64,000 bases of DNA, from NCBI GenBank assembly GCA_017849585.1, contig JAFIGT010000020.1, positions 1-64,000 on the forward strand. The letters are read 5' to 3'. Positions 40,566 through 52,558 of the stretch are shown here, one piece after another. Under the pieces are notes generated by a model. That model was given only the letters and a program-made list of their open reading frames with translations. It was not told where the DNA came from and searched no databases. A program made the position numbers and the translations under genes. How positions within the stretch are numbered: position 1 is the first letter of the stretch; the number at the start of each line of letters is the position of its first letter. The stretch is from Verrucomicrobium sp. (GTDB lineage Bacteria > Verrucomicrobiota > Verrucomicrobiia > Methylacidiphilales > UBA1321).

Positions 40566-42050
40566 TCAACCCGCGAGCGAACACCGGATAAAGTGGATGA
40601 TCGGATCGGGGAACATACCGCCGATGAGGACAAGCAGCGCCAGAAGGCCGAGACAGATCCATTCGGCGTTCGTGACGCGGATCGGTGCGGGTGTGTCAAC
40701 CGGATCGTTGACAAAGCTAACCTTGAGCACGCGTAGGTAGTAGTAGAGCGAGACAGCGCTCATGATCAAAGCCAGACCGACGAGCCAATACGCGCCTTCA
40801 TACCACTTCGCGATGGTGGGCTGCGCTTCGATGGCGGAGAAGAAGAGATAGAATTTGCCAATGAATCCCGCCAGCGGCGGGATGCCAGCGAGGGAGAGGA
40901 AGAAGACGGCGGTGAGCAGCGCGAGGAGCGGACTGCGTTTCCAGCAGCCGGCGATGTCCTGAATGTCCGCGGTGAGTCCATTGCGATCACTGACGAGATT
41001 GATCACACCGAACGCGCCAAGGTTGGCGAGGGCGTAGATGCTCACGTAGAAGAGGACGGCGGCCATGCCTTCCACCGTGCCGCTGAGCACGCCGATGAGC
41101 ATGTATCCAGCGTGACCGACCGCGCTGTAGGCGAGGAGTCGTTTGAGATTGGATTGGCGCAACGCCCCGAGATTGCCGATGAGGAGGCTCAACGCGGCAC
41201 CGAGGGCGACTCCACCCATCCAGATGGCCTTGGTTGAGGACGTGATGGCGACGGGTTGGAGAATCTTGATGAGGACGAAGAATCCAGCCACTTTGGAACC
41301 GCTGGCGATCCATGCAGCAACCGGGGTGGGCGCGCTTTGGTAAACATCCGGCACCCAGAAATGGAAGGGGGCCATGGCGACTTTGAAACCGAGACCGACG
41401 AGAATCAACAGGATAGCCACTCGCAACAGCGGCGGAATGGCTTCCAGCGAGGTGATCGCGAGTGTGGCATCGTGCAGGTTGAGGGTTTGGACGACGCCAT
41501 AGAAATAGCTGAGTCCGAACAGCAGGAATGCGGAGGAGACGGCACCGAAGGTGAAATATTTCAAACCCGCTTCCGCCGAGGCGCGCGAGGATTTGTTGAA
41601 GGCGGTGAGCGCATAGAGGCTCAGGCTGACCAGTTCCAACGCGACGAAGATGAGCAGGAGGTTCTCCGTGCAGACGAGGAATCCGGCACCGAGCGTGCTA
41701 AGCAGAATGAGCGCGTAGTATTCGCTGACGTGCGTGTTCGGTGCCTGATCGGCCGACAGGATGCAAACGATCGTGGCGAGACCGAAGAGCAACGCCTTGG
41801 CGCCGAGAGTCAACGACGTGAGGACAATCTGATCCTGACCCAGCGAGCGGGGCGCGAACCACAACATTTGTCCGATGATGACGGCGATGCCGACGACCAG
41901 CCCGATGCAGGCGATGCTTGCAGCAATGCGGCTGCGGGTGGGCAGGGGATGATGGCGCAGCAGTCCGTAGTCTACGCCGAGGGCGGCAAAGAGCGACAGG
42001 ACGACGAAGAGTTCCGGCAGAAGCGCCGTCAGGAGAATCGAATAATTCAT
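40566..42050 (-). CDS. nuoN: Complex I subunit N
   Basis: Antiporter-like membrane subunit of NADH:quinone oxidoreductase, 494 aa with about 14 helices. The TM5 glutamate is present in 'FVALELVSLSLYAL' and the TM7 lysine in 'GLGFKVAMAPFHFWVPDVYQSAPTPVAAW'. 'NLKRLLAYSAVGHAGYMLIG' follows. It forms the proton-pumping half-channel nearest NuoK. It is the last gene of the operon, and its ATG overlaps the nuoM stop (ATGA). Confidence 0.96.
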   Translation of the reverse strand: MNYSILLTALLPELFVVLSLFAALGVDYGLLRHHPLPTRSRIAASIACIGLVVGIAVIIGQMLWFAPRSLGQDQIVLTSLTLGAKALLFGLATIVCILSADQAPNTHVSEYYALILLSTLGAGFLVCTENLLLIFVALELVSLSLYALTAFNKSSRASAEAGLKYFTFGAVSSAFLLFGLSYFYGVVQTLNLHDATLAITSLEAIPPLLRVAILLILVGLGFKVAMAPFHFWVPDVYQSAPTPVAAWIASGSKVAGFFVLIKILQPVAITSSTKAIWMGGVALGAALSLLIGNLGALRQSNLKRLLAYSAVGHAGYMLIGVLSGTVEGMAAVLFYVSIYALANLGAFGVINLVSDRNGLTADIQDIAGCWKRSPLLALLTAVFFLSLAGIPPLAGFIGKFYLFFSAIEAQPTIAKWYEGAYWLVGLALIMSAVSLYYYLRVLKVSFVNDPVDTPAPIRVTNAEWICLGLLALLVLIGGMFPDPIIHFIRCSLAG

Positions 42051-43552
42051 GGGGTCACCGCTCCGGTTGCGAGGGCGGCCACGAGCGGAGCCAGGCCGGA
42101 GTTAATGAGTTCAATCAAGGGTTTCGGATAGAGACCAACACCCAGCGCGGCCGCAATGAGCACGACGAGGGCGACTGTTTCGGGGCAGGTCAACGGCGGA
42201 TACTTTTCGGGGAGCGGATGGGCTGGATCATTCGCGGTGGCCGAGCGGCGGAAGAACGCTTCGTGAATCTTGATCAGCGTATAGGCGAAGGTGACGATGA
42301 TGCCGAGACCCGCCACAACGAGAATCCAGACGGAGAAGAGTGGCTGCTGCCACGCGCCGATGAGGACGTGCAGTTCCGCGACGAAGCCGCTGAAACCGGG
42401 CATGCCCATGGAGGCGAGACCCGCGACGATGAAGAGCCACGCGATGGTCGGCATCCGGTCGATCAGGCGGTCAAAGTCGGCGAGTTGACGCGTATGCGTG
42501 CGGCGGTAAATCGAACCTCCGACCAGCGCGAAGAGCAGGGCGCCGATCACGCCGTGGGAGAACATTTGCAGCACCGCGCCGTTCAGGCCGGTGGTGTTCA
42601 GCGTGGCGAGACCAAGCAGGACAAAGCCCATGTGGCTGACGCTTGAGTAACCAATAACGAACTTGAAGTCTGACTGGACGAGGGCGATCAAGGCTCCATA
42701 AAGGATGTTGATCACTGCGATGACCGCGATCCATTGCGCCCAATGTTGCGCGCCGAGCGGGAGGAGTCCAATGGCGACGCGCAGGCAGCCGTACGCGCCG
42801 AGTTTCATCACCACGCCCGCGAGGAGCATTGAGGCGGCGGTTGGCGCGGCCACGTGACCGGTGGGCGCCCACGTATGGAAGGGCCACATACCGGCTAGCA
42901 CCGCGAAGCCGATGAAGACAATCGGGAAGACGACGATCTGGAAGGTCTGCGAATAGTGTGCCTCGGTGGTGAGGCGGGTGAGGTCAAAGGTATTCAATCC
43001 CGCGCCGAAGTAGAGGGCGAGCAAGCTGAAGAAAATGAGCGAGCTGCTGGTGAAGGAGTAGATCACGAGCTTCATCGCGGCGTATTCGCGGCGCGTGCTG
43101 CCCCAGATGGCGATGAGGAAATACTTCGGAACAATCGCAATCTCGTAGAAGACGAAGAGCATCACCAAGTCGAGCGAAAGGAAAACACCATACACGCCGC
43201 CGATCAGGGCGAGGAAGAAGGCGAAGAATTCATTCGCGCGATGTTCGATGTCCCATGAGAACAGGACGCCGCAAAAAGCGATGAGGCCGGTCAACAGGAG
43301 GAGCGAGAGGCTGATACCGTCGACGCCGGACTTGAACTGAATGCCGAGCGAGGTGACCCACGGGAGGCTGACGACCGATTGATAACCGCCGTCGGCAATG
43401 TGGTATTGCAGCGTGGCGAACGCCGCGGTGATCAGTCCGAGCAAGGCGGTGATGAGAGCGGTCCAGCGGATCGTGCGGAGACGTTCGGGAGGCGTCAGGC
43501 CGACGGCCAGCGCGCCCACGAAGCTGAGGATGACGGTGAAAAGGGGCAGCAT
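42047..43552 (-). CDS. nuoM: Complex I subunit M, copy 1 (variant TM7)
   Basis: A 501-aa antiporter-like subunit. TM5 glutamate E137 is in 'FVFYEIAIVPKYFLIAIWG'; TM8 lysine K250 is in 'VVMKLGAYG'; a TM12 glutamate is in 'FSGFVAELHVL'. The TM7 lysine that most NuoM carry in 'FAVKxPxxPFHTW' is replaced: the sequence reads 'FAVLAGMWPFHTWAP' with Leu at 219. It is distal to a second NuoM gene. It still looks like a pumping subunit, but with an altered central proton relay. Confidence 0.93.
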   Translation of the reverse strand: MLPLFTVILSFVGALAVGLTPPERLRTIRWTALITALLGLITAAFATLQYHIADGGYQSVVSLPWVTSLGIQFKSGVDGISLSLLLLTGLIAFCGVLFSWDIEHRANEFFAFFLALIGGVYGVFLSLDLVMLFVFYEIAIVPKYFLIAIWGSTRREYAAMKLVIYSFTSSSLIFFSLLALYFGAGLNTFDLTRLTTEAHYSQTFQIVVFPIVFIGFAVLAGMWPFHTWAPTGHVAAPTAASMLLAGVVMKLGAYGCLRVAIGLLPLGAQHWAQWIAVIAVINILYGALIALVQSDFKFVIGYSSVSHMGFVLLGLATLNTTGLNGAVLQMFSHGVIGALLFALVGGSIYRRTHTRQLADFDRLIDRMPTIAWLFIVAGLASMGMPGFSGFVAELHVLIGAWQQPLFSVWILVVAGLGIIVTFAYTLIKIHEAFFRRSATANDPAHPLPEKYPPLTCPETVALVVLIAAALGVGLYPKPLIELINSGLAPLVAALATGAVTP

Positions 43553-43556
43553 AAAG

Positions 43557-45053
43557 TTAGCGGTAGTTTTTCAGGATATAATCGACGACCTCGGAGCTGG
43601 CGCGCAGCCAGTAGCCGGGAGTGACGCCGACCCAGACGATGAGCACGATGAGCGGTCCGGCAGTGATCCATTCCACCAGCGACAGATCGGGAATCGATTT
43701 CCACTTTTCCACGAGCGGTCCGGTGAAGACGCGCTGCAGCATGGTGAGGAGGAAAATCGCCGTCGTGAGGAGGGCCGGAATCGCCGCGAGCGTGAAGACG
43801 GGGGCGAGGCCGTAACTGCCGTAGAAGATGGGGAATTCACTCGCGAACCCGGCCAGGAACGGCAGGCCGATCGAGGAGAAGGTGAGGATCGTGAAGAGTG
43901 TCGCGAAGCGCGGCGTCACAGCGCGGAGGCCGCCGAAGTCGGTCAGATAGCGCGACCCAGTGCGGGCTTCGAGGCGACCGACGAGGTAAAACAATCCTGC
44001 AACGGTCAACCCGTGGCTGAACATTTGCAGGATCGCACCTTGCAGTGCGGGCGTCTGTGCATCGACGTTCAATCCCGTGCGGGTCGCGCCCACCGCGCAG
44101 ATGCCGAGCAGGCAGTAGCCGACGTGGTTCAGCGAGGAATAGGTCAGCAACTTCTTCAGATCGTTCTGGCGCATCGCGGCGAACGCTCCGAGCAGGATCG
44201 TCGCCGCCGTGATCGTGAGCAGGAAAACCGAGTGGGCCTTGAACGCCTCGGGGAAGATCGGGAGGATCAGCCGGAGGAATCCGTACACGCCGAGCTTCGA
44301 GAGCAAAGCGGAAAGGAGAATGCTCACCGCCGTGGGGGCTTGCGTGTACGCTTCGGGCTGCCAGATATGGAACGGAACGAGCGGAGTTTTAACCCACAGG
44401 CCAAGCAACACCGCGAGGAAGATCCAGCCGTAAAGCGGGCCAACCATCGCGGGGAGATTGCCGGTCGAGGCGAGTCCGGCCAGCGCGAGGAAATCAAACG
44501 TGCCGGTCTTGAGATAGAGCAACTGGAAGCCGAGGAGCATCGCCACGCTGCCGAGCACGGTGAAGAGGAAGAACTTCATGGCCGCTTCGTCGCGCCGTTC
44601 GCCGCCGAAGAATTTGATCAGGAAGAACACCGGCACGAGGCTCAGTTCGAAGTAGAGGAACCAGTGGTAGAAATTCAACGCGGTGAACGCGCCGAACAAT
44701 CCCGTGAACTCCAGCGACAGGAGCGGGAAGTAGATCGATTTCTTGTCTTGCACATCCCACGAGGCGAGCACCGAGACGGGCGCGATGATGGCCGCGAGGA
44801 GGAGGAGGAGGAAATTGAGTCCGTCGACACCGACGAAATATTGAATGCCGAGTGAGGGAATCCATTCGTGGCGTTCGACGAATTGCACGCCGCCGCCGAC
44901 GGTGATGAAGCTCCACGCGAGTTTCAGCGTCAGCGCGAGCGAAGCCAGAGAACCGCCGAGCGCCCAGGCGCGGGCGAGGCGTCCGTCGCGGCCCGGTTGC
45001 AGGAACGCGCCGAGAGCGGCAATGAGGGGAATTAAAGTGATTGCGGTGATCAT
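43557..45053 (-). CDS. nuoM: Complex I subunit M, copy 2
   Basis: A 498-aa antiporter-like subunit with the complete canonical set: TM5 glutamate E136 in 'LYFELSLVPVFFLIKFFGG', TM7 lysine K222 in 'LWVKTPLVPFHIWQPEAYTQAPT', TM8 lysine K253 in 'LLSKLGVYG' and the TM12 glutamate in 'LAGFASEFPIF'. It lies between nuoL and the other nuoM, four bases before the latter. The two copies differ widely, so this is not a recent duplication. A complex I carrying both would have four antiporter-like subunits (L, M, M, N) instead of three. Confidence 0.92.
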   Translation of the reverse strand: MITAITLIPLIAALGAFLQPGRDGRLARAWALGGSLASLALTLKLAWSFITVGGGVQFVERHEWIPSLGIQYFVGVDGLNFLLLLLAAIIAPVSVLASWDVQDKKSIYFPLLSLEFTGLFGAFTALNFYHWFLYFELSLVPVFFLIKFFGGERRDEAAMKFFLFTVLGSVAMLLGFQLLYLKTGTFDFLALAGLASTGNLPAMVGPLYGWIFLAVLLGLWVKTPLVPFHIWQPEAYTQAPTAVSILLSALLSKLGVYGFLRLILPIFPEAFKAHSVFLLTITAATILLGAFAAMRQNDLKKLLTYSSLNHVGYCLLGICAVGATRTGLNVDAQTPALQGAILQMFSHGLTVAGLFYLVGRLEARTGSRYLTDFGGLRAVTPRFATLFTILTFSSIGLPFLAGFASEFPIFYGSYGLAPVFTLAAIPALLTTAIFLLTMLQRVFTGPLVEKWKSIPDLSLVEWITAGPLIVLIVWVGVTPGYWLRASSEVVDYILKNYR

Positions 45054-45065
45054 AGTTGCAAGCCG

Positions 45066-47042
45066 TTAAAATGCGGACCACCAGAAGAGCACGCCGAGCA
45101 GCACCGCACCGAGGGCGATGAAGCGCAGGTAATTGGTGAGGTAACCGTTTTGCGCGCGGGTGGTGACGAACGAGGCGTTGCGCAGTGTCTGGCAGAAGCC
45201 GTCGAAGCTCCATTGGTCGATAAGCAGGCGGTCGCCGCGGAACGCGAAAAGATTGCTGAGCTGGCGCACGCCGAGGACGATCAGTTCGCTGAAGACCAGC
45301 AGGAACGCGTCGATCATTTCGGCAGCGAAGGCGAGCCATTTCCAGAGCGCGCCGACCGTGGCGGCATACAGCTCGTCGAGATAACCGCGATTTTCGAGGA
45401 AGCGATAGCCGGGGCTGGAAACTTTTTCAATCGCGTCCGGCTCCGTGGCGCTCAGCGTGCGGCGGAAGCCATAGACCCAGAAACCGACGAGCAAACCGCC
45501 GAGCGCGACGGCCAGGCTGACCACCGTGACGGTGAGGGAGTGGTGCGGCGCGGTGAATTCAGCGTCGAGATACGTGGCGATTTCAAAGTGTTTGGCGATG
45601 CCGCCGAAGGCGAGGGCGAAGATCGCGAGGATCGCGAGCGGCGCGGTGATGGGCCACGGGCTTTCGTGCGGATGACCGTGCGAGCGGGTCTTGCCGAAGA
45701 AGACGTAGCAGATCTGGCGCATCATATAGAATGACGTGCAGAACGCCGCGGCCGCGCCGACGAAGAAGAGCGGTCGATTGCTGGTCCACGCACAGAGCAA
45801 AATTTCGTCCTTGCTGAAGAAGCCGGATGTCAGCGGGAAGGCACACAAGGCCGCCGCGCCGCAGAGATAGCAGGCGGTCGTGATCGGCATGCTCTTGAGC
45901 ACGCCGCCGAGCTTGCGGATGTCCTGTTCGCCGTGGCAACCGTGAATGATCGATCCGGCACCGAGGAAGAGCAACGCCTTGAAGAACGCGTGGCTGAGGA
46001 GATGGAACATGCCGGGCGCGGTGCCACCGACGCCAAGGCCGAGCATCATCATGCCGAGCTGGCTGACGGTCGAATAGGCGAGGATGCGTTTGAGATCATT
46101 CTGGCCAATTGCGATGAGTCCCGCGAACAGGGCAGTGATGCCGCCGACCCACGCTACGATGGTGAGCGAGACGGTATCGGCTTGGAACAAAACAATCGTG
46201 CGGGCGACGAGGAACACACCCGCCGCAACCATCGTGGCCGCGTGGATGAGTGCGGAGACCGGGGTCGGACCTTCCATCGCGTCGGGGAGCCAGATGTGGA
46301 GCGGGAATTGACCCGATTTGCCGACCGCGCCGATGAAAATGAGGGTGCTGATGCCGGCGGCCGCGCTGATGCCGAAGAGCGGTTCGCCCGCCGTGGCAAT
46401 CGTGGTCACGCCACTTTCGAGGAGGCCGGTGCCGTTATTGTAGAAGAGCAACGTGCCGGTTTCCTTGAACGCCCAGAGCAGACCGATGAAGAGACCCAGA
46501 TCGCCGATGCGCGTGGTGATGAACGCTTTCTTCGCCGCAGCGGCCGCGGACGGCTTCCTGTACCAGAATCCAATCAGCAGGTACGACGCGAGGCCGACGA
46601 TTTCCCAGCACATGAACAGCAGCAGAAGGCTGTTGGCAATGATCAGCCCGAGCATGCCCGCCGCGAAGAGCGACAGGTAGTAGAAGAACCGCGTTTGATC
46701 CGGGTCCTCGGCCATGTAGTTGCCGGAGTAGAAGAAAATCAGGAAACCGATGAAGGTGACCATGGCCACCATCGAGGCCGAGAGCGGATCGAGCACCACG
46801 CCGAAATCGACACTGGCGCCGCCGAGTTGCATCCACTGGAAATTGTAGAAGCGCGTGGCGGGATTCTCGATGTTGAGCTTCAGCGCGTAAAGCGACAGCA
46901 CGAGCGAGATGCCGAGGCCGAGCAGACCCGCGCCGACGGCGGCACGTTTCCACGACGGTTTGATCAGCGCGATCACAGCTGCCGCGATCAGCGGGCAGAG
47001 CGGGATGGCGGCGATCCAGAGGATGCAGGAATTGTCAGGCAT
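45066..47042 (-). CDS. nuoL: Complex I subunit L
   Basis: A 658-aa distal antiporter-like subunit. TM5 glutamate in 'LLFMCWEIVGLASYLLIGFWY', then 'AAKKAFITTRIGDLGLFIG', TM7 lysine in 'GAVGKSGQFPLHIWLPDAMEGPTPVSALIHAATMVAAG' and 'NDLKRILAYSTVSQLG'. The C-terminal part ('ENRGYLDELYAATVGALWKWLAF' to the end) provides the lateral helix that runs along the membrane arm. Length is only slightly above the usual ~615 aa. It follows nuoK by 6 bases. Confidence 0.96.
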   Translation of the reverse strand: MPDNSCILWIAAIPLCPLIAAAVIALIKPSWKRAAVGAGLLGLGISLVLSLYALKLNIENPATRFYNFQWMQLGGASVDFGVVLDPLSASMVAMVTFIGFLIFFYSGNYMAEDPDQTRFFYYLSLFAAGMLGLIIANSLLLLFMCWEIVGLASYLLIGFWYRKPSAAAAAKKAFITTRIGDLGLFIGLLWAFKETGTLLFYNNGTGLLESGVTTIATAGEPLFGISAAAGISTLIFIGAVGKSGQFPLHIWLPDAMEGPTPVSALIHAATMVAAGVFLVARTIVLFQADTVSLTIVAWVGGITALFAGLIAIGQNDLKRILAYSTVSQLGMMMLGLGVGGTAPGMFHLLSHAFFKALLFLGAGSIIHGCHGEQDIRKLGGVLKSMPITTACYLCGAAALCAFPLTSGFFSKDEILLCAWTSNRPLFFVGAAAAFCTSFYMMRQICYVFFGKTRSHGHPHESPWPITAPLAILAIFALAFGGIAKHFEIATYLDAEFTAPHHSLTVTVVSLAVALGGLLVGFWVYGFRRTLSATEPDAIEKVSSPGYRFLENRGYLDELYAATVGALWKWLAFAAEMIDAFLLVFSELIVLGVRQLSNLFAFRGDRLLIDQWSFDGFCQTLRNASFVTTRAQNGYLTNYLRFIALGAVLLGVLFWWSAF

Positions 47043-47048
47043 GGGCGA

Positions 47049-47360
47049 TTACTCGTGAAGGGACGTCATTTTTTCGAGGTCCGGCGTCTTGTAGAAACGA
47101 TAGACGGCGATGACCAGGGCCAGGCCGACGGCGGCTTCCGCTCCGGCGATGGCGATGGAAAACAGGGTGAAAAGCTGGCCGAGGAGCAGGTCCGGATTCG
47201 GGCCGAAACGCCAGAAGGCGATGAAGTTCAGATTGGCCGCGTTGAGCATGATCTCCACGCCGATGAGGACGATGATCGCGTGACGGCGCGTGAGCACGCC
47301 GAGCAATCCCACAAAAAAGAGAATGGCGGAGACAACCAGATAATAGTGGAGCGGGACCAT
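47049..47360 (-). CDS. nuoK: Complex I subunit K
   Basis: A 103-aa subunit with three membrane helices and the two buried glutamates of the family, in 'IGVEIMLNAANLNFIAF' (TM2) and 'IAGAEAAVGLALVIAVYR' (TM3). It forms part of the proton channel next to NuoN and NuoJ. Length and motifs are standard. It follows nuoJ by two bases. Confidence 0.96.
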   Translation of the reverse strand: MVPLHYYLVVSAILFFVGLLGVLTRRHAIIVLIGVEIMLNAANLNFIAFWRFGPNPDLLLGQLFTLFSIAIAGAEAAVGLALVIAVYRFYKTPDLEKMTSLHE

Positions 47361-47362
47361 AA

Positions 47363-47881
47363 TCAGGACTTCTTTTCTTCCTCGGATTTTTCCGGGCTGA
47401 TGGCAATCACCACCGCGCCGAGCAGGGCAGCCGTTAACAGCAATGCGATCACTTGCAGGGCGATGGCATACGGCGACATCAGATTCAAGCCGAGTGCGCG
47501 CACGGACGGATCAATCGTTTCCACCACCGGTTGCAACGGCAGGGCGGTTTTCAAAATGGCGGGCAACAGCAGCGTCAGCAAAACGGCGGTGGCTCCCGCC
47601 AGACCCCACAACGCGCCGTGCGCCTCGATATGTTCCTTCACATTGCCGGTCACCTGTTGAGTGAGCATGATCGCGAACAGGATCAGGATTCCGACCGCGC
47701 CGACGTAGACGAGGATTTGCACGGCGGCGAGAAACTCGGCCATCAGCAGGATGAAAAGTCCGGCCAGTGCGACGAAGAACGCCATCAGAGTGAGCGTGGC
47801 ATGAACGAGGTTGCGCAGGCGCACGGCGAGCAGCGCGCTGATCACGGCAATGACGGAGAGGATGGAAAAGGCGATGATCAT
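47363..47881 (-). CDS. nuoJ: Complex I subunit J
   Basis: A 172-aa subunit with five membrane helices; 'EFLAAVQILVYVGAVGILILFAIML' is the diagnostic pi-bulge helix 3 whose movement couples quinone reduction to pumping. I set the start at ATG 47881, which overlaps the nuoH stop (ATGA); an upstream in-frame ATG would lie well inside nuoH. The C-terminus is highly charged ('SPEKSEEEKKS'). Confidence 0.94.
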   Translation of the reverse strand: MIIAFSILSVIAVISALLAVRLRNLVHATLTLMAFFVALAGLFILLMAEFLAAVQILVYVGAVGILILFAIMLTQQVTGNVKEHIEAHGALWGLAGATAVLLTLLLPAILKTALPLQPVVETIDPSVRALGLNLMSPYAIALQVIALLLTAALLGAVVIAISPEKSEEEKKS

Positions 47882-49131
47882 GAGGCGTAGTGGTAAACGC
47901 GTTGAGCGGTCTTCGGTCCGCGATTGAGGCGGCCGATGCATTCATAGCTGAGGTACATCACGAGGAAACCGATGGGCCAGCCGACGACCGGGATGCCGTG
48001 CCAGCGGGGAGCGTAGTAATAGAACCCGCCGACGAAGATATTCATGATGGCGAGCGGCAGGAGGAATTTCCACGCGAAGCCCATCAGGTGATCCACCCGG
48101 AGGCGGGGCAGCGTGCCGCGAATCCAGATCATGACCAGCATCAGCGCGAACATCTTGGCGAAGAACCAGACAAAGCCGGGGATCAGAAGCGCATTGGGAT
48201 CATCCGACCACGGAGGGCGGATATTCGGACCGCTCCAGCCGCCGAGGAACAGCGTGGTGGAGAGACCGTTGATCGCGAAGGCGCTCACATACTCGCTCAT
48301 GAAGAAGAGTGCGTACTTGAAACCGCTGTATTCAGTCAGGTGACCCGCCACGATTTCGGAATCGGCTTCCGGCAGATCGAATGGGCAACGATTGATTTCC
48401 GCCAGCGAAGCGACAAAGAAGATGAGAAAGCCCGCGAAGCCCCAAGGTGTGAACACATTCCAGCCGATGATCTGGCCGAGGCATTGCAATCCCGCGTTGC
48501 TGCTTTGAATCCATTCGGAAAGCTGCTGTTGCGCGACGATCTTGGTCGTATCGAGCGACCCGGTCATCATGATCACCGTCACACCCGAAAGGACGAGGGG
48601 CAATTCGTAGCTCACCATCTGCGCGATGGCACGCATGCCGCCGAGCAGGGAATACTTATTGCGGGATGACCAGCCGGCCATGAACACCGCCAGTGTGCTC
48701 ACCGAGCCGAGCGCGAAAAAGAGAATCACGCCGGTATCGACGGCGGCCGGGATCATGTTGCGGTTGAACGGCAACACGGAAAGAATCGTGAAAGCCGGAA
48801 CCATCAACACGACCGGAGCGAGGAAATGAGCGAGGCGGTCGCTGGTCTTCGGCACGATGTCTTCCTTGAGCAACATCTTGATGCCGTCGGCAATCGGTTG
48901 AAGCATGCCTAGAAAACCAGTTCGATTTGGACCGATGCGGTTCTGAATTCGCGCGAGGCCCTTGCGCTCCAGCCACGTTGTAATGGCGAAGCATATTGGA
49001 AATACGGCGACGAGAGGCACGGTGGAAAGCAGGATTGCCACCAGAACGGCTACGAGCGGATAGCTGTCCAGAAAGGACAACGCCCACTGCGTGAGTTGAA
49101 CAATAAGTTGGTCGGGATTGATCGGCGTCAT
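47878..49131 (-). CDS. nuoH: Complex I subunit H
   Basis: A 417-aa membrane subunit that binds the quinone site to the membrane arm. 'AITTWLERKGLARIQNRIGPNRTG' (loop 1), 'QPIADGIKMLLKEDIVP', 'SLAEINRCPFDLPEADSEIVAGHLTEYSGFKYALFF' (the acidic funnel) and 'RGTLPRLRVDHLMGFAWK' are all present. An N-terminal extension precedes helix 1. Gene order is unusual: nuoI comes before nuoH and overlaps it by four bases. Confidence 0.96.
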   Translation of the reverse strand: MTPINPDQLIVQLTQWALSFLDSYPLVAVLVAILLSTVPLVAVFPICFAITTWLERKGLARIQNRIGPNRTGFLGMLQPIADGIKMLLKEDIVPKTSDRLAHFLAPVVLMVPAFTILSVLPFNRNMIPAAVDTGVILFFALGSVSTLAVFMAGWSSRNKYSLLGGMRAIAQMVSYELPLVLSGVTVIMMTGSLDTTKIVAQQQLSEWIQSSNAGLQCLGQIIGWNVFTPWGFAGFLIFFVASLAEINRCPFDLPEADSEIVAGHLTEYSGFKYALFFMSEYVSAFAINGLSTTLFLGGWSGPNIRPPWSDDPNALLIPGFVWFFAKMFALMLVMIWIRGTLPRLRVDHLMGFAWKFLLPLAIMNIFVGGFYYYAPRWHGIPVVGWPIGFLVMYLSYECIGRLNRGPKTAQRVYHYAS

Positions 49132-49673
49132 GCGGCAGGGGTGGAAGGAGTGGGAGCAGGTTTCTTCTGTTTCGCCGCGAGACGGTCGTCGACTTCCTGC
49201 GCTTCGTCGGGGTGGATCTTGTGGAAATACGTGTTCGATTTCAGCAAGTGTTCCCGTTTCAGCAGCAGGCCCTCAAAGCGGTCGGGCGTGGAAAGTTCAA
49301 AGGTGCTGTCCATCTTGATCGATTCGAACGGGCACACCTCGACGCAAATCTGGCAGCCCATGCAGACGGAGATATCGATGTCGAATACCTTGGGACGCTT
49401 GGCCGGTTTGCCGTTGGCGTCTTTTTCCATGACGATGTAGATGCACTGCGGCGGGCATTCCTTCTCGCAAATCTTGCACGCCACGCAACGCATCGTGCCG
49501 AGCGGATCTTCGTCGTTGTCGTACACGAGGAACGGAATATTGCGGCTGAACAACGTCACTGAATTGCCCGCTTCCGGGTACTGGAGCGTGGGCAATAGCC
49601 GCTTGTTGACGAAGCTTCCGAAGAAGTTCTTCGCCGTGATGGCCATGCCTTTGAGGATTCCGATGCCGAGCAT
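49128..49673 (-). CDS. nuoI: Complex I subunit I (two [4Fe-4S] clusters)
   Basis: A 181-aa peripheral ferredoxin-like subunit that carries clusters N6a and N6b to NuoB. The two ligand sets are 'CVACKICEKECP' and 'CMGCQICVEVCP', in the right order and spacing. The C-terminal tail ('KQKKPAPTPSTPAA') is extra. It sits directly after nuoD (one base gap) and overlaps nuoH by four bases; in most operons nuoI follows nuoH. Confidence 0.96.
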   Translation of the reverse strand: MLGIGILKGMAITAKNFFGSFVNKRLLPTLQYPEAGNSVTLFSRNIPFLVYDNDEDPLGTMRCVACKICEKECPPQCIYIVMEKDANGKPAKRPKVFDIDISVCMGCQICVEVCPFESIKMDSTFELSTPDRFEGLLLKREHLLKSNTYFHKIHPDEAQEVDDRLAAKQKKPAPTPSTPAA

Positions 49674-49674
49674 A

Positions 49675-50826
49675 TTAGCGGTCCACCTCTCCGAGGACGA
49701 TGTCGATACTGCCGAGGATGATCACCGCGTCGGCGATCTTCTGGCCGAGGCACATGTCTTCGAGGACAGTCAGGTTGATGAAGGACGGCGGACGCACATG
49801 ATACCGGTGCGGCTTGGGCGTGCCGTCGCTGACGAGATAGAAACCGAGTTCGCCCTTCGGACCTTCGATGCGGCCGTAGGCTTCAGCCGGCTTGGGGCGG
49901 AAATTGCGCGCCTTGCTGTCGTTCACGGGACCTTCCGGAATCGTGGCCAGCGCCTGCTTGAGAATCTTGACGCTCTCGCGCATTTCCAATAGGCGGATCA
50001 TGAAGCGATCATAGCAATCGCCCACCGAACCAAGCGGTACTTTGAAATCGAAACGGTCGTAGACGCCGTACTTGTCGACCTTGCGGATGTCGTAATCGAC
50101 GCCGCTGGCGCGCAGGCAGGGACCGGTGATGCTCGCGTTGATCGCCAGATCGCGCGGCAGCACGCCCACGTTTTGGCAACGACTCAGGATGATTTCGTTG
50201 CCGGTCAGCAACGTTTCGAATTCGTCCATGAAGGCGGGGAAATCGTCGACCACCTTCTTGCACTGCGCGAGCCAGCCGGAGGGCAGGTCGTTGCGCACGC
50301 CGCCGAAGCGCATGTAATTGCACATCATGCGCGCGCCGCTGGCCCATTCGAAGAGATCCAGAATGTGTTCCCGTTCGCGGATGGCGTAGAGCAGGGGAGT
50401 GCCGCTCGCGCCGAGATCGTTCGTGAGGAAGCCGACCAGCGAGGCGTGATTCTGCAGGCGGGTCAACTCGGCCATGATGACGCGGATGTACTCCGCGCGT
50501 TCCGGTACGGCCAGACCGGCCATCTTTTCCACTGCGAGGGCGTAGGCCCAGTTGTTCGTCATCGAACAAAAATAATCGAGCCGGTCCGTGTACGGCATCG
50601 AGCCGAGGTACGAGGTCGTCTCCGCGATCTTCTCGTGATTGCGGTGCAAATAGCCGAAGACCGGCTTCAGTTTCACCACGGTTTCGCCATCGAGCGACAC
50701 ATCCATGCGGAACACGCCGTGCGTGCTCGGATGTTGCGGTCCCATTGAAATTTCTAGCACGTTTGTGCGGAGGTCGTCGCCGGAATAAATCTGATACTCG
50801 CGCGGGGCGATGGTCTCGGTATTCAT
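49675..50826 (-). CDS. nuoD: Complex I subunit D (49-kDa)
   Basis: A 383-aa quinone-site subunit. '[16 protein letters not shown]' contains the His of the quinone pocket; '[12 protein letters not shown]', '[14 protein letters not shown]' (the Tyr that contacts the quinone head group lies in this region of the fold) and the C-terminal 'DIVLGEVDR' are typical. Separate from NuoC, not fused as in E. coli. Its ATG overlaps the nuoC stop. Confidence 0.96.
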
Positions 50827-51413
50827 GAAGCGGCCTCCGTCGACGTCGAAGCTTTGGGGTAGTGCGCCTTCGCCTTGGCTAGAACGGCGTCATGCGGGGT
50901 TGGCTCGTATTCGTAATCGTCGGGCTCGACGTAATCCTTGCGCATCGGGAAATCCTTGAACTCGTCCCACATCAGGATGCGGCGCAGATCGGGGTGACCC
51001 TCGAACTGGATGCCGAAGAGATCAAACGCCTCGCGTTCCTGAAACTCCGCGCCGCGATAGATCGGGGTGAGGGAGGTGACCGCCGGATTTTCGCGGGTGG
51101 TGACTTGCTTGATCGTGATCGGCCCGTGCTTCAGGGCCATCGAGTAGAGGTGATAAACCACTTCCATCGAACCGGGCTTCTTTGTGACCACTTCCCTTTC
51201 AGTGCCGTCGGGCTGCTTGACCTTGGTCTTCTTCTCGACCGGGAGCGTGTCGACGCCCGCGACGTTGCTGGCGTAATCCATCCGGTAGGCGGGATCATCG
51301 CGCAGCCACTTGGCCACTTCGAGCGCCAGGGCTTGAGGCACGATCAGCGCGTTGGCCGCAGCGTCGTGCTTCACCGTGGGAAACTTGGCGAGAATGGGGG
51401 CGAGGTCGATCAT
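50823..51413 (-). CDS. nuoC: Complex I subunit C (30-kDa)
   Basis: A 196-aa structural subunit of the connecting arm. The family signature is '[30 protein letters not shown]', followed by 'FPMRKDYV'. A basic segment with a [19 protein letters not shown]-like loop (about 70-90) is an insertion relative to shorter homologues. It overlaps nuoD by four bases; nuoB ends 33 bases upstream. Confidence 0.94.
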
Positions 51414-51446: not shown

Positions 51447-52100
51447 CTACGCTTCGCGGACAATCGTATGGGGTTTCCAGACTTCCGGGTTGTACGGAGG
51501 AACGAGATCGTGCTCGCCGAATTCCGGGATCGGGCATTCGCGATTTTCGCCGCGGTAAGCAGGATTAGTCCGGCGCGCATCGGAGCCGAGGGTACGTTGA
51601 TTCTCGATCTTGCGTTGCAGCGTCATCAGCGCGTGCAAGAGTGCTTCCGGTCGCGGCGGGCAGCCGGGGATGTGGACGTCGACGGGAATGAACCGGTCCA
51701 CGCCCTTGAGGACGTTATAGCCTTGCTTGAACGGACCGCCCGAAATGGCGCACGCGCCCATCGCGATGACGTACTTCGGTTCCGGCATCTGGTTGTACAA
51801 GCGGATCACTTGCGGCGCCATCTTCTTGGTCACCGTGCCGGCCACGATCATCAGATCGGCCTGCCGGGGAGAGGGGCGGAACACTTCCGCGCCGAACCGG
51901 GAGAGGTCGAAGCGCGAGGCGGCGGTACAAATCATTTCAATGGCGCAGCAGGCGATGCCGAACCCGAGCGGCCAGATCGAGCTCTTGCGGCCCCAGTTAT
52001 AAACCCATTCCAGCGAGACGACAAAGACGCCCGCTTTCTGGAGTTCGCTCCGCAAGCCTTCATCGGCGGCGAAACTGGTATTCGTGGGAAGAAGCGTCAT
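51447..52100 (-). CDS. nuoB: Complex I subunit B (N2 cluster)
   Basis: A 217-aa subunit holding the terminal [4Fe-4S] cluster N2 that reduces quinone. Tandem cysteines in '[13 protein letters not shown]', a further Cys in '[12 protein letters not shown]' and one in '[12 protein letters not shown]' are the ligands. A C-terminal extension of about 40 residues ('[17 protein letters not shown]...') is longer than in E. coli. It follows nuoA by four bases. Confidence 0.96.
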
Positions 52101-52104
52101 AGGT

Positions 52105-52491
52105 TTATTTCCACTCCAGCAGGCCCTTGCCCCAAAGGTAGATGAGACTTTCGACCAGGATCAGGATAAAGACTGACATCGCGATGAAGCCGCCGAGGCC
52201 GACCCCGGTAAAGGCTACCGCCCACGGATAAAGGAACACCGCTTCGATGTCGAAAATCACGAACGCCAGCGCATACAGGTAGTACTGCACCTTGAACTGC
52301 ATCCACGGATCGCCCTTCGATTCGATACCGCACTCGTACGATTCGTTTTTCGTCTTGCCTGGCTTTTTCGGTGCCAACACCCAGGCGATGGCCAAGGGGG
52401 TGCAAGCGAAGATCACGGCAATTACGCCAAGAATGGCAATCAAGAGATAATGGTAGAAGTAAGTGGCCACAAAAATGTAGGTTTCTATCAT
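52105..52491 (-). CDS. nuoA: Complex I subunit A
   Basis: A 128-aa membrane subunit with three helices. The loop '[45 protein letters not shown]' is the diagnostic NuoA region with the conserved Cys and acidic residues. I set the start at ATG 52491; a GTG at 52509 would add six residues. A TTGACA on the minus strand (52523-52518) lies upstream but is not followed by a convincing -10. First gene of the nuo operon. Confidence 0.94.
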
Positions 52492-52558
52492 ATAGCCTAA
52501 TGACTGCACTCCGAAAGTGTCAAGTATTAGGAAATATAATTTTTTTCAAATTGGAAAA

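Follow-up and report, generated by a model that had tools for sequence, protein, structure and literature searches.

A Verrucomicrobium complex I operon encoding two NuoM lineages, with a putative lysine swap in the second

The twelve-gene operon and its two NuoM proteins

On the minus strand of the window, by which we mean the whole stretch of 64,000 nucleotides that was analyzed, we identified a complex I operon of twelve genes in the order nuoA-B-C-D-I-H-J-K-L-M-M'-N (52509-40566). The intergenic gaps range from -64 to 33 bp and are mostly 12 bp or less, and the run looks like a single transcription unit. The GTG-initiated nuoA (52105..52509) is an open reading frame corresponding by orthology to the gene that heads the conserved operon, and nuoB (51447..52100), likewise part of the conserved operon, encodes the CC pair and the further cysteines of cluster N2. 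nuoC (50823..51413) is not fused to nuoD and was assigned from its place in the conserved operon and from a TIGR01961 match lying under the curated cut-off of that family, and nuoD (49675..50826) was assigned from PRK12322 and TIGR01962. Family matches identified nuoI (49128..49673), which carries two CxxCxxCxxxCP motifs, as well as nuoH (47878..49131), nuoJ (47363..47941), and nuoK (47049..47360). The 64 bp overlap of the run is that of nuoJ with nuoH, and the true start of nuoJ is probably downstream of the listed ATG. With two 4Fe-4S motifs in NuoI and the N2 cysteines in NuoB, the motifs for iron-sulphur wiring from NuoI to NuoB are present. No nuoE, nuoF, or nuoG was found in the operon of the window, and by this gene content the cluster does not encode a 14-subunit NADH:quinone oxidoreductase. 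By family match and alignment to Escherichia coli, nuoL (45066..47042) encodes a protein of 658 aa in which all key residues are retained (E147, D181, K242, K318, H351, K355, K411, and D412), and nuoN (40566..42050), also identified by family match, retains E139, K223, K253, and K399.

Between nuoL and nuoN lie nuoM (43557..45053) and a second nuoM (42047..43552), whose products are referred to here as M and M'. The preliminary description of this DNA had pointed to two adjacent, divergent NuoM proteins, and both were recovered as minus-strand open reading frames, only 35% identical to each other. What was there called copy 1 is M', the NuoM gene transcribed second, adjoining nuoN. Both score well above the cut-off of the NuoM family TIGR01972 (465.9 bits for M and 427.0 bits for M', cut-off 263.8). 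A kinship of either copy with Mrp- or Hyf-type subunits, which the description had considered, was not borne out (NDH_I_M 466 and 427 bits vs 188 and 171 bits for the best Mrp D matches), and an Mrp or hydrogenase origin is ruled out by these family scores. The complete pump set of TM5 Glu, TM7 Lys, TM8 Lys, and TM12 Glu, which had been ascribed to M, is indeed found there as E136, K222 (codon 44388..44390), K253, and E406, corresponding to E144, K234, K265, and E407 of E. coli NuoM. The set is incomplete in M', where Leu219 (codon 42896..42898) stands at the position of K234 while E144, K265, and E407 are kept as E137, K250, and E393, again as first described; the alignment places no lysine elsewhere in TM7 of M'.

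Comparison of M' with its nearest relative gave a dN of 0.0054 and a dS of 0.187, and with a 79%-identical relative a dN of 0.153 and a dS of 0.741. Purifying selection is strong on M', matching that on M, L, and N, and M' is therefore not a decaying copy, a reading ruled out by dN/dS well below 1. The predicted model of M' has a pLDDT of 89.6, and its closest folds are cyanobacterial NdhD and bacterial NuoM (TM-score 0.92-0.93).

The 2M complex I, with four pump subunits, was reportedly described by Chadwick et al. in 2018, and published 2M work is said to point to convergent origins of the 2M clades. In the operon analyzed here, the span of the NuoL lateral helix (HL; residues 557-635, codons 45138..45374) covers 79 residues by alignment, compared with 53 in this genome's canonical NuoL and 49 in that of E. 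coli. Across the 2M NuoL proteins measured, the span is 77-79 aa, the sole exception being interrupted by an ambiguous base, and it is 53 in four canonical NuoL proteins. AlphaFold predicts this region of NuoL as mostly helical (helices 552-611 and 613-624), with a confidence of 40-54 over residues 600-640. The HL of the operon is thus about 25 residues longer than the canonical one, comparable to the 26-aa insertion in the lateral, amphipathic helix of NuoL published as the 2M hallmark (PMC9040806; PMC6606698). Since this extension is combined with two nuoM genes between nuoL and nuoN, we assign the operon to the 2M type, as had been suggested from the second NuoM. Its architecture is of a known kind and not new, examples being found in Nitrospira, Chloroflexi, and Acidobacterium capsulatum (PMC6606698, PMC7117926, PMC11636273).

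Distribution and origin of the two copies

We scanned named bacterial genomes for M' and recovered 80 loci, nearly all from Verrucomicrobiota or Acidobacteriaceae, together with one record titled Deltaproteobacteria; among the named genomes, Verrucomicrobia bacterium Tous-C9LFEB matches the window best (99%). In 75 of the loci M and M' are neighbours, in 60 L, M, M', and N are contiguous, and none of the 80 contains an E, F, or G homologue. No additional gene, for instance one for a ferredoxin or a stand-in for EFG, was found conserved next to the operon in the upstream flanks of 29 loci and the downstream flanks of 64. Within the phylum M' is patchy, being detected in 16/289 sampled genomes at E <= 1e-120, a threshold that misses diverged copies. 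At one locus of Verrucomicrobia LW23 (L042:4559-7771), M' and nuoN adjoin a nuoD-like gene, and the 16-19 kb inspected to each side contained no nuoL or M; the 2M operon of LW23 appears to be rearranged or partly lost. Three records titled 'Akkermansia muciniphila' (L099, L113, and L119) carry the operon, and their M' and M most resemble those of environmental Verrucomicrobiota, with which a record titled Proteobacteria (L072) also groups. These four titles are probably wrong.

Compared with the compact 2M operon, the genes for this genome's canonical complex I are divided between two contigs, with nuoB-C-D-E-F-G-H on contig C6 (L043) and nuoI-J-K-L-M-N on contig C12 (L008). A cluster starting at nuoI is also seen in genomes G001, G003, G012, and G024. 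An ordinary complex I alongside one with a duplicated nuoM is also described for A. capsulatum (PMC11636273). The Nitrospira 2M cluster is reported without nuoE, nuoF, and nuoH and with an enlarged nuoG, whereas here nuoH is present and E, F, and G are absent, and the Chloroflexi 2M genes form a split operon with a fused nuoCD, whereas here nuoC is separate from nuoD. Complex_I_3 of Ca. Manganitrophus resembles the 2M enzyme in having extra pump subunits and a 26-aa insertion in the subunit with the lateral helix, but it has five pump subunits, and two MrpD-like proteins replace NuoL (PMC9040806). Among solved structures, the nearest to M' and L in sequence are 6hum_D and 6hum_F, and NDH-1 is also the closest by fold. 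The NDH-1 of cyanobacteria and chloroplasts lacks NuoEFG, as is the case here, but contains one NdhD per complex, and in the alignment NdhD keeps the TM7 lysine.

The origin of the pair was examined in trees of 52 and 92 NuoM proteins, the larger with a NuoN outgroup. M' clusters with the canonical NuoM proteins that lack the TM7 lysine, with SH-aLRT values of 90 in the 92-NuoM tree, 100 in the 52-NuoM tree, and 99.9 when five trait columns were removed, and M makes up its own clade on the lysine-bearing side of the trees. The adjacency of the two genes would fit a tandem duplication of M, after which relaxed selection on a redundant copy would have cost M' its lysine. Against this reading stand the purifying selection on M', the invariance of its K143, and the tree test, in which M and M' as sisters were rejected (p-AU 0.00015, and 1.6e-5 without the trait columns). 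Tandem duplication of one NuoM is therefore ruled out, its residual probability being negligible, and the pair was assembled from two NuoM lineages and not by recent duplication.

The TM7 lysine and its candidate substitutes

Across the operon family, the TM7 position is L or M in 83/83 rows for M' and K in 67/67 rows for M, a few rows representing the same genome twice. The lysine is also absent in 30/31 canonical NuoM proteins, sampled mostly from the same order and including the single canonical NuoM of this genome (contig C12, L008:5364-6845), which has a Leu at this position. The missing lysine is thus not specific to the extra copy and, being shared with the canonical NuoM of the genome and its order, is to be regarded as a long-standing trait of a NuoM lineage. 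The preliminary description was right to suspect that the loss alone is nothing special, and this now rests on the single NuoM proteins of the order. Its further proposal, that the loss is special in combination with a canonical second copy, does not hold, as this combination is instead the rule of the operon family. Having recognized the 2M type and the lysine loss, the description had overlooked that M' gained a lysine in TM5, that nuoEFG is missing, and that M and M' arose separately.

The gained lysine is K143 of M' (codon 43124..43126), located six residues past the TM5 glutamate at E. coli position 150. It is invariant in M', and a search of the alignment for group-specific charges found no lysine at this position in M or in canonical NuoM. 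The canonical NuoM proteins of Verrucomicrobiota without the TM7 lysine, such as that on contig C12, form the clade nearest to M' and share the Leu at the TM7 position, but have K264 and H259 in TM8 and H143 in TM5 (E. coli numbering) in place of the TM5 K150, and their partner NuoL is without the HL extension. M has TM5 charges of its own, a His at position 138 (66/67) and a Lys or Arg at position 155 (67/67), which are absent in M' and canonical NuoM and may mark the M-M' interface.

We extended the survey to 297 distinct NuoM proteins from Verrucomicrobiota, Acidobacteriota, the phylum of record L102, and E. coli. K234 is present in 167, none of which carries a substitute. Among the 130 proteins without K234, 87 have K150 (all of the M' type), 42 have K264, and one has neither. 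The last (L244, NuoM open reading frame from base 1345) is the only lysine-less NuoM with no substitute lysine in TM5 or TM8, and has a His at position 263 and an Asn at position 143. In another protein (L254, open reading frame from base 42), in which the TM7 lysine is also missing, the TM8 lysine is shifted by one residue (K264, Q265). Highly regular as this mutual exclusion of the lysines is, the groups defined by it are clades and represent about one loss and two gains and not 130 independent events. The needed positive charge seems to have been relocated from TM7 to other helices. The TM7 lysine might accordingly be dispensable in NuoM modules, its role having moved to TM5 in M' and to TM8 in the verrucomicrobial NuoM, a reading we put forward tentatively and hold at somewhat less than even odds.

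Putative architecture and electron input of the enzyme

The operon very probably encodes a 2M-type, quinone-reducing, and proton-translocating enzyme with L, M, M', and N in a row and a NuoL HL some 25 residues longer than usual. In this enzyme, four antiporter-like subunits would stand in line instead of three, clamped by the lengthened HL and with M' placed between M and N. Electrons would pass from the two NuoI clusters to N2 in NuoB and on to quinone, a path taken from complex I biochemistry and for which the motifs are present, and the quinone chemistry would drive the modules in the order N, M', M, and L, as suggested by conserved residues and gene order. In M', K143 in TM5 may functionally replace the missing TM7 lysine. 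Each module would move one proton, so that the fourth would add one proton per two electrons. Such an extra proton per cycle has been proposed for 2M complex I (PMC6606698), and no biochemical proof of it was found in the open-access literature. The low confidence of the HL prediction around residues 600-640 weighs against the four-module reading.

M' could instead be a spacer or a passive proton relay, giving a longer enzyme that still translocates four protons per two electrons, as current pumping models give a central place to the TM5 Glu/TM7 Lys ion pair (PMC9271201) and the lysine is missing in every M'. However, the canonical NuoM of this genome and most of those sampled from its order lack the same lysine, every other pumping residue of M' is invariant, and its clade has a TM5 lysine of its own, and we consider a non-pumping M' unlikely. 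The low identity and separate origins of M and M' would also fit alternative subunits of two three-module complexes, like the cyanobacterial NdhD isoforms. This is made highly improbable by their placement in a compact operon that has just one nuoL and gaps of 4 and -4 bp, and by the HL extension of the operon NuoL, which is missing from canonical NuoL proteins.

For electron entry into the four-module enzyme, a low-potential carrier such as ferredoxin could act at NuoI, or NuoEFG could be shared with the canonical enzyme. A NuoF homologue is present somewhere in 14/14 of the M'-bearing genomes tested, as expected if the 2M complex is an NADH dehydrogenase borrowing the canonical NuoEFG. The best-scoring NuoF, where checked, lies near canonical nuo genes and away from the 2M operon, and here the sole nuoF is on contig C6 next to the nuoD of the canonical complex; with the genome at 96% completeness, however, a second nuoEFG could be missing from it. 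As EFG is missing in all 80 loci, a ferredoxin-like or other low-potential donor is slightly favoured, and borrowing is the less probable of the two, though a serious contender.

A NuoM without the TM7 lysine, or a lysine swap, was not found reported in the open-access literature. The swap appears to be unreported and is the most interesting feature of the operon. For the mechanism of complex I, the swap offers a direct mutational test of how strictly pumping depends on the TM5 Glu/TM7 Lys pair. Conserved 12-gene operons are available for studies of 2M complex I, including those of cultured Acidobacteriota (Terracidiphilus gabretensis, L116). If the relocation is true, the TM5 Glu/TM7 Lys pair would be one of at least three wirings, and a single enzyme would contain two of these next to each other, in M and M'.
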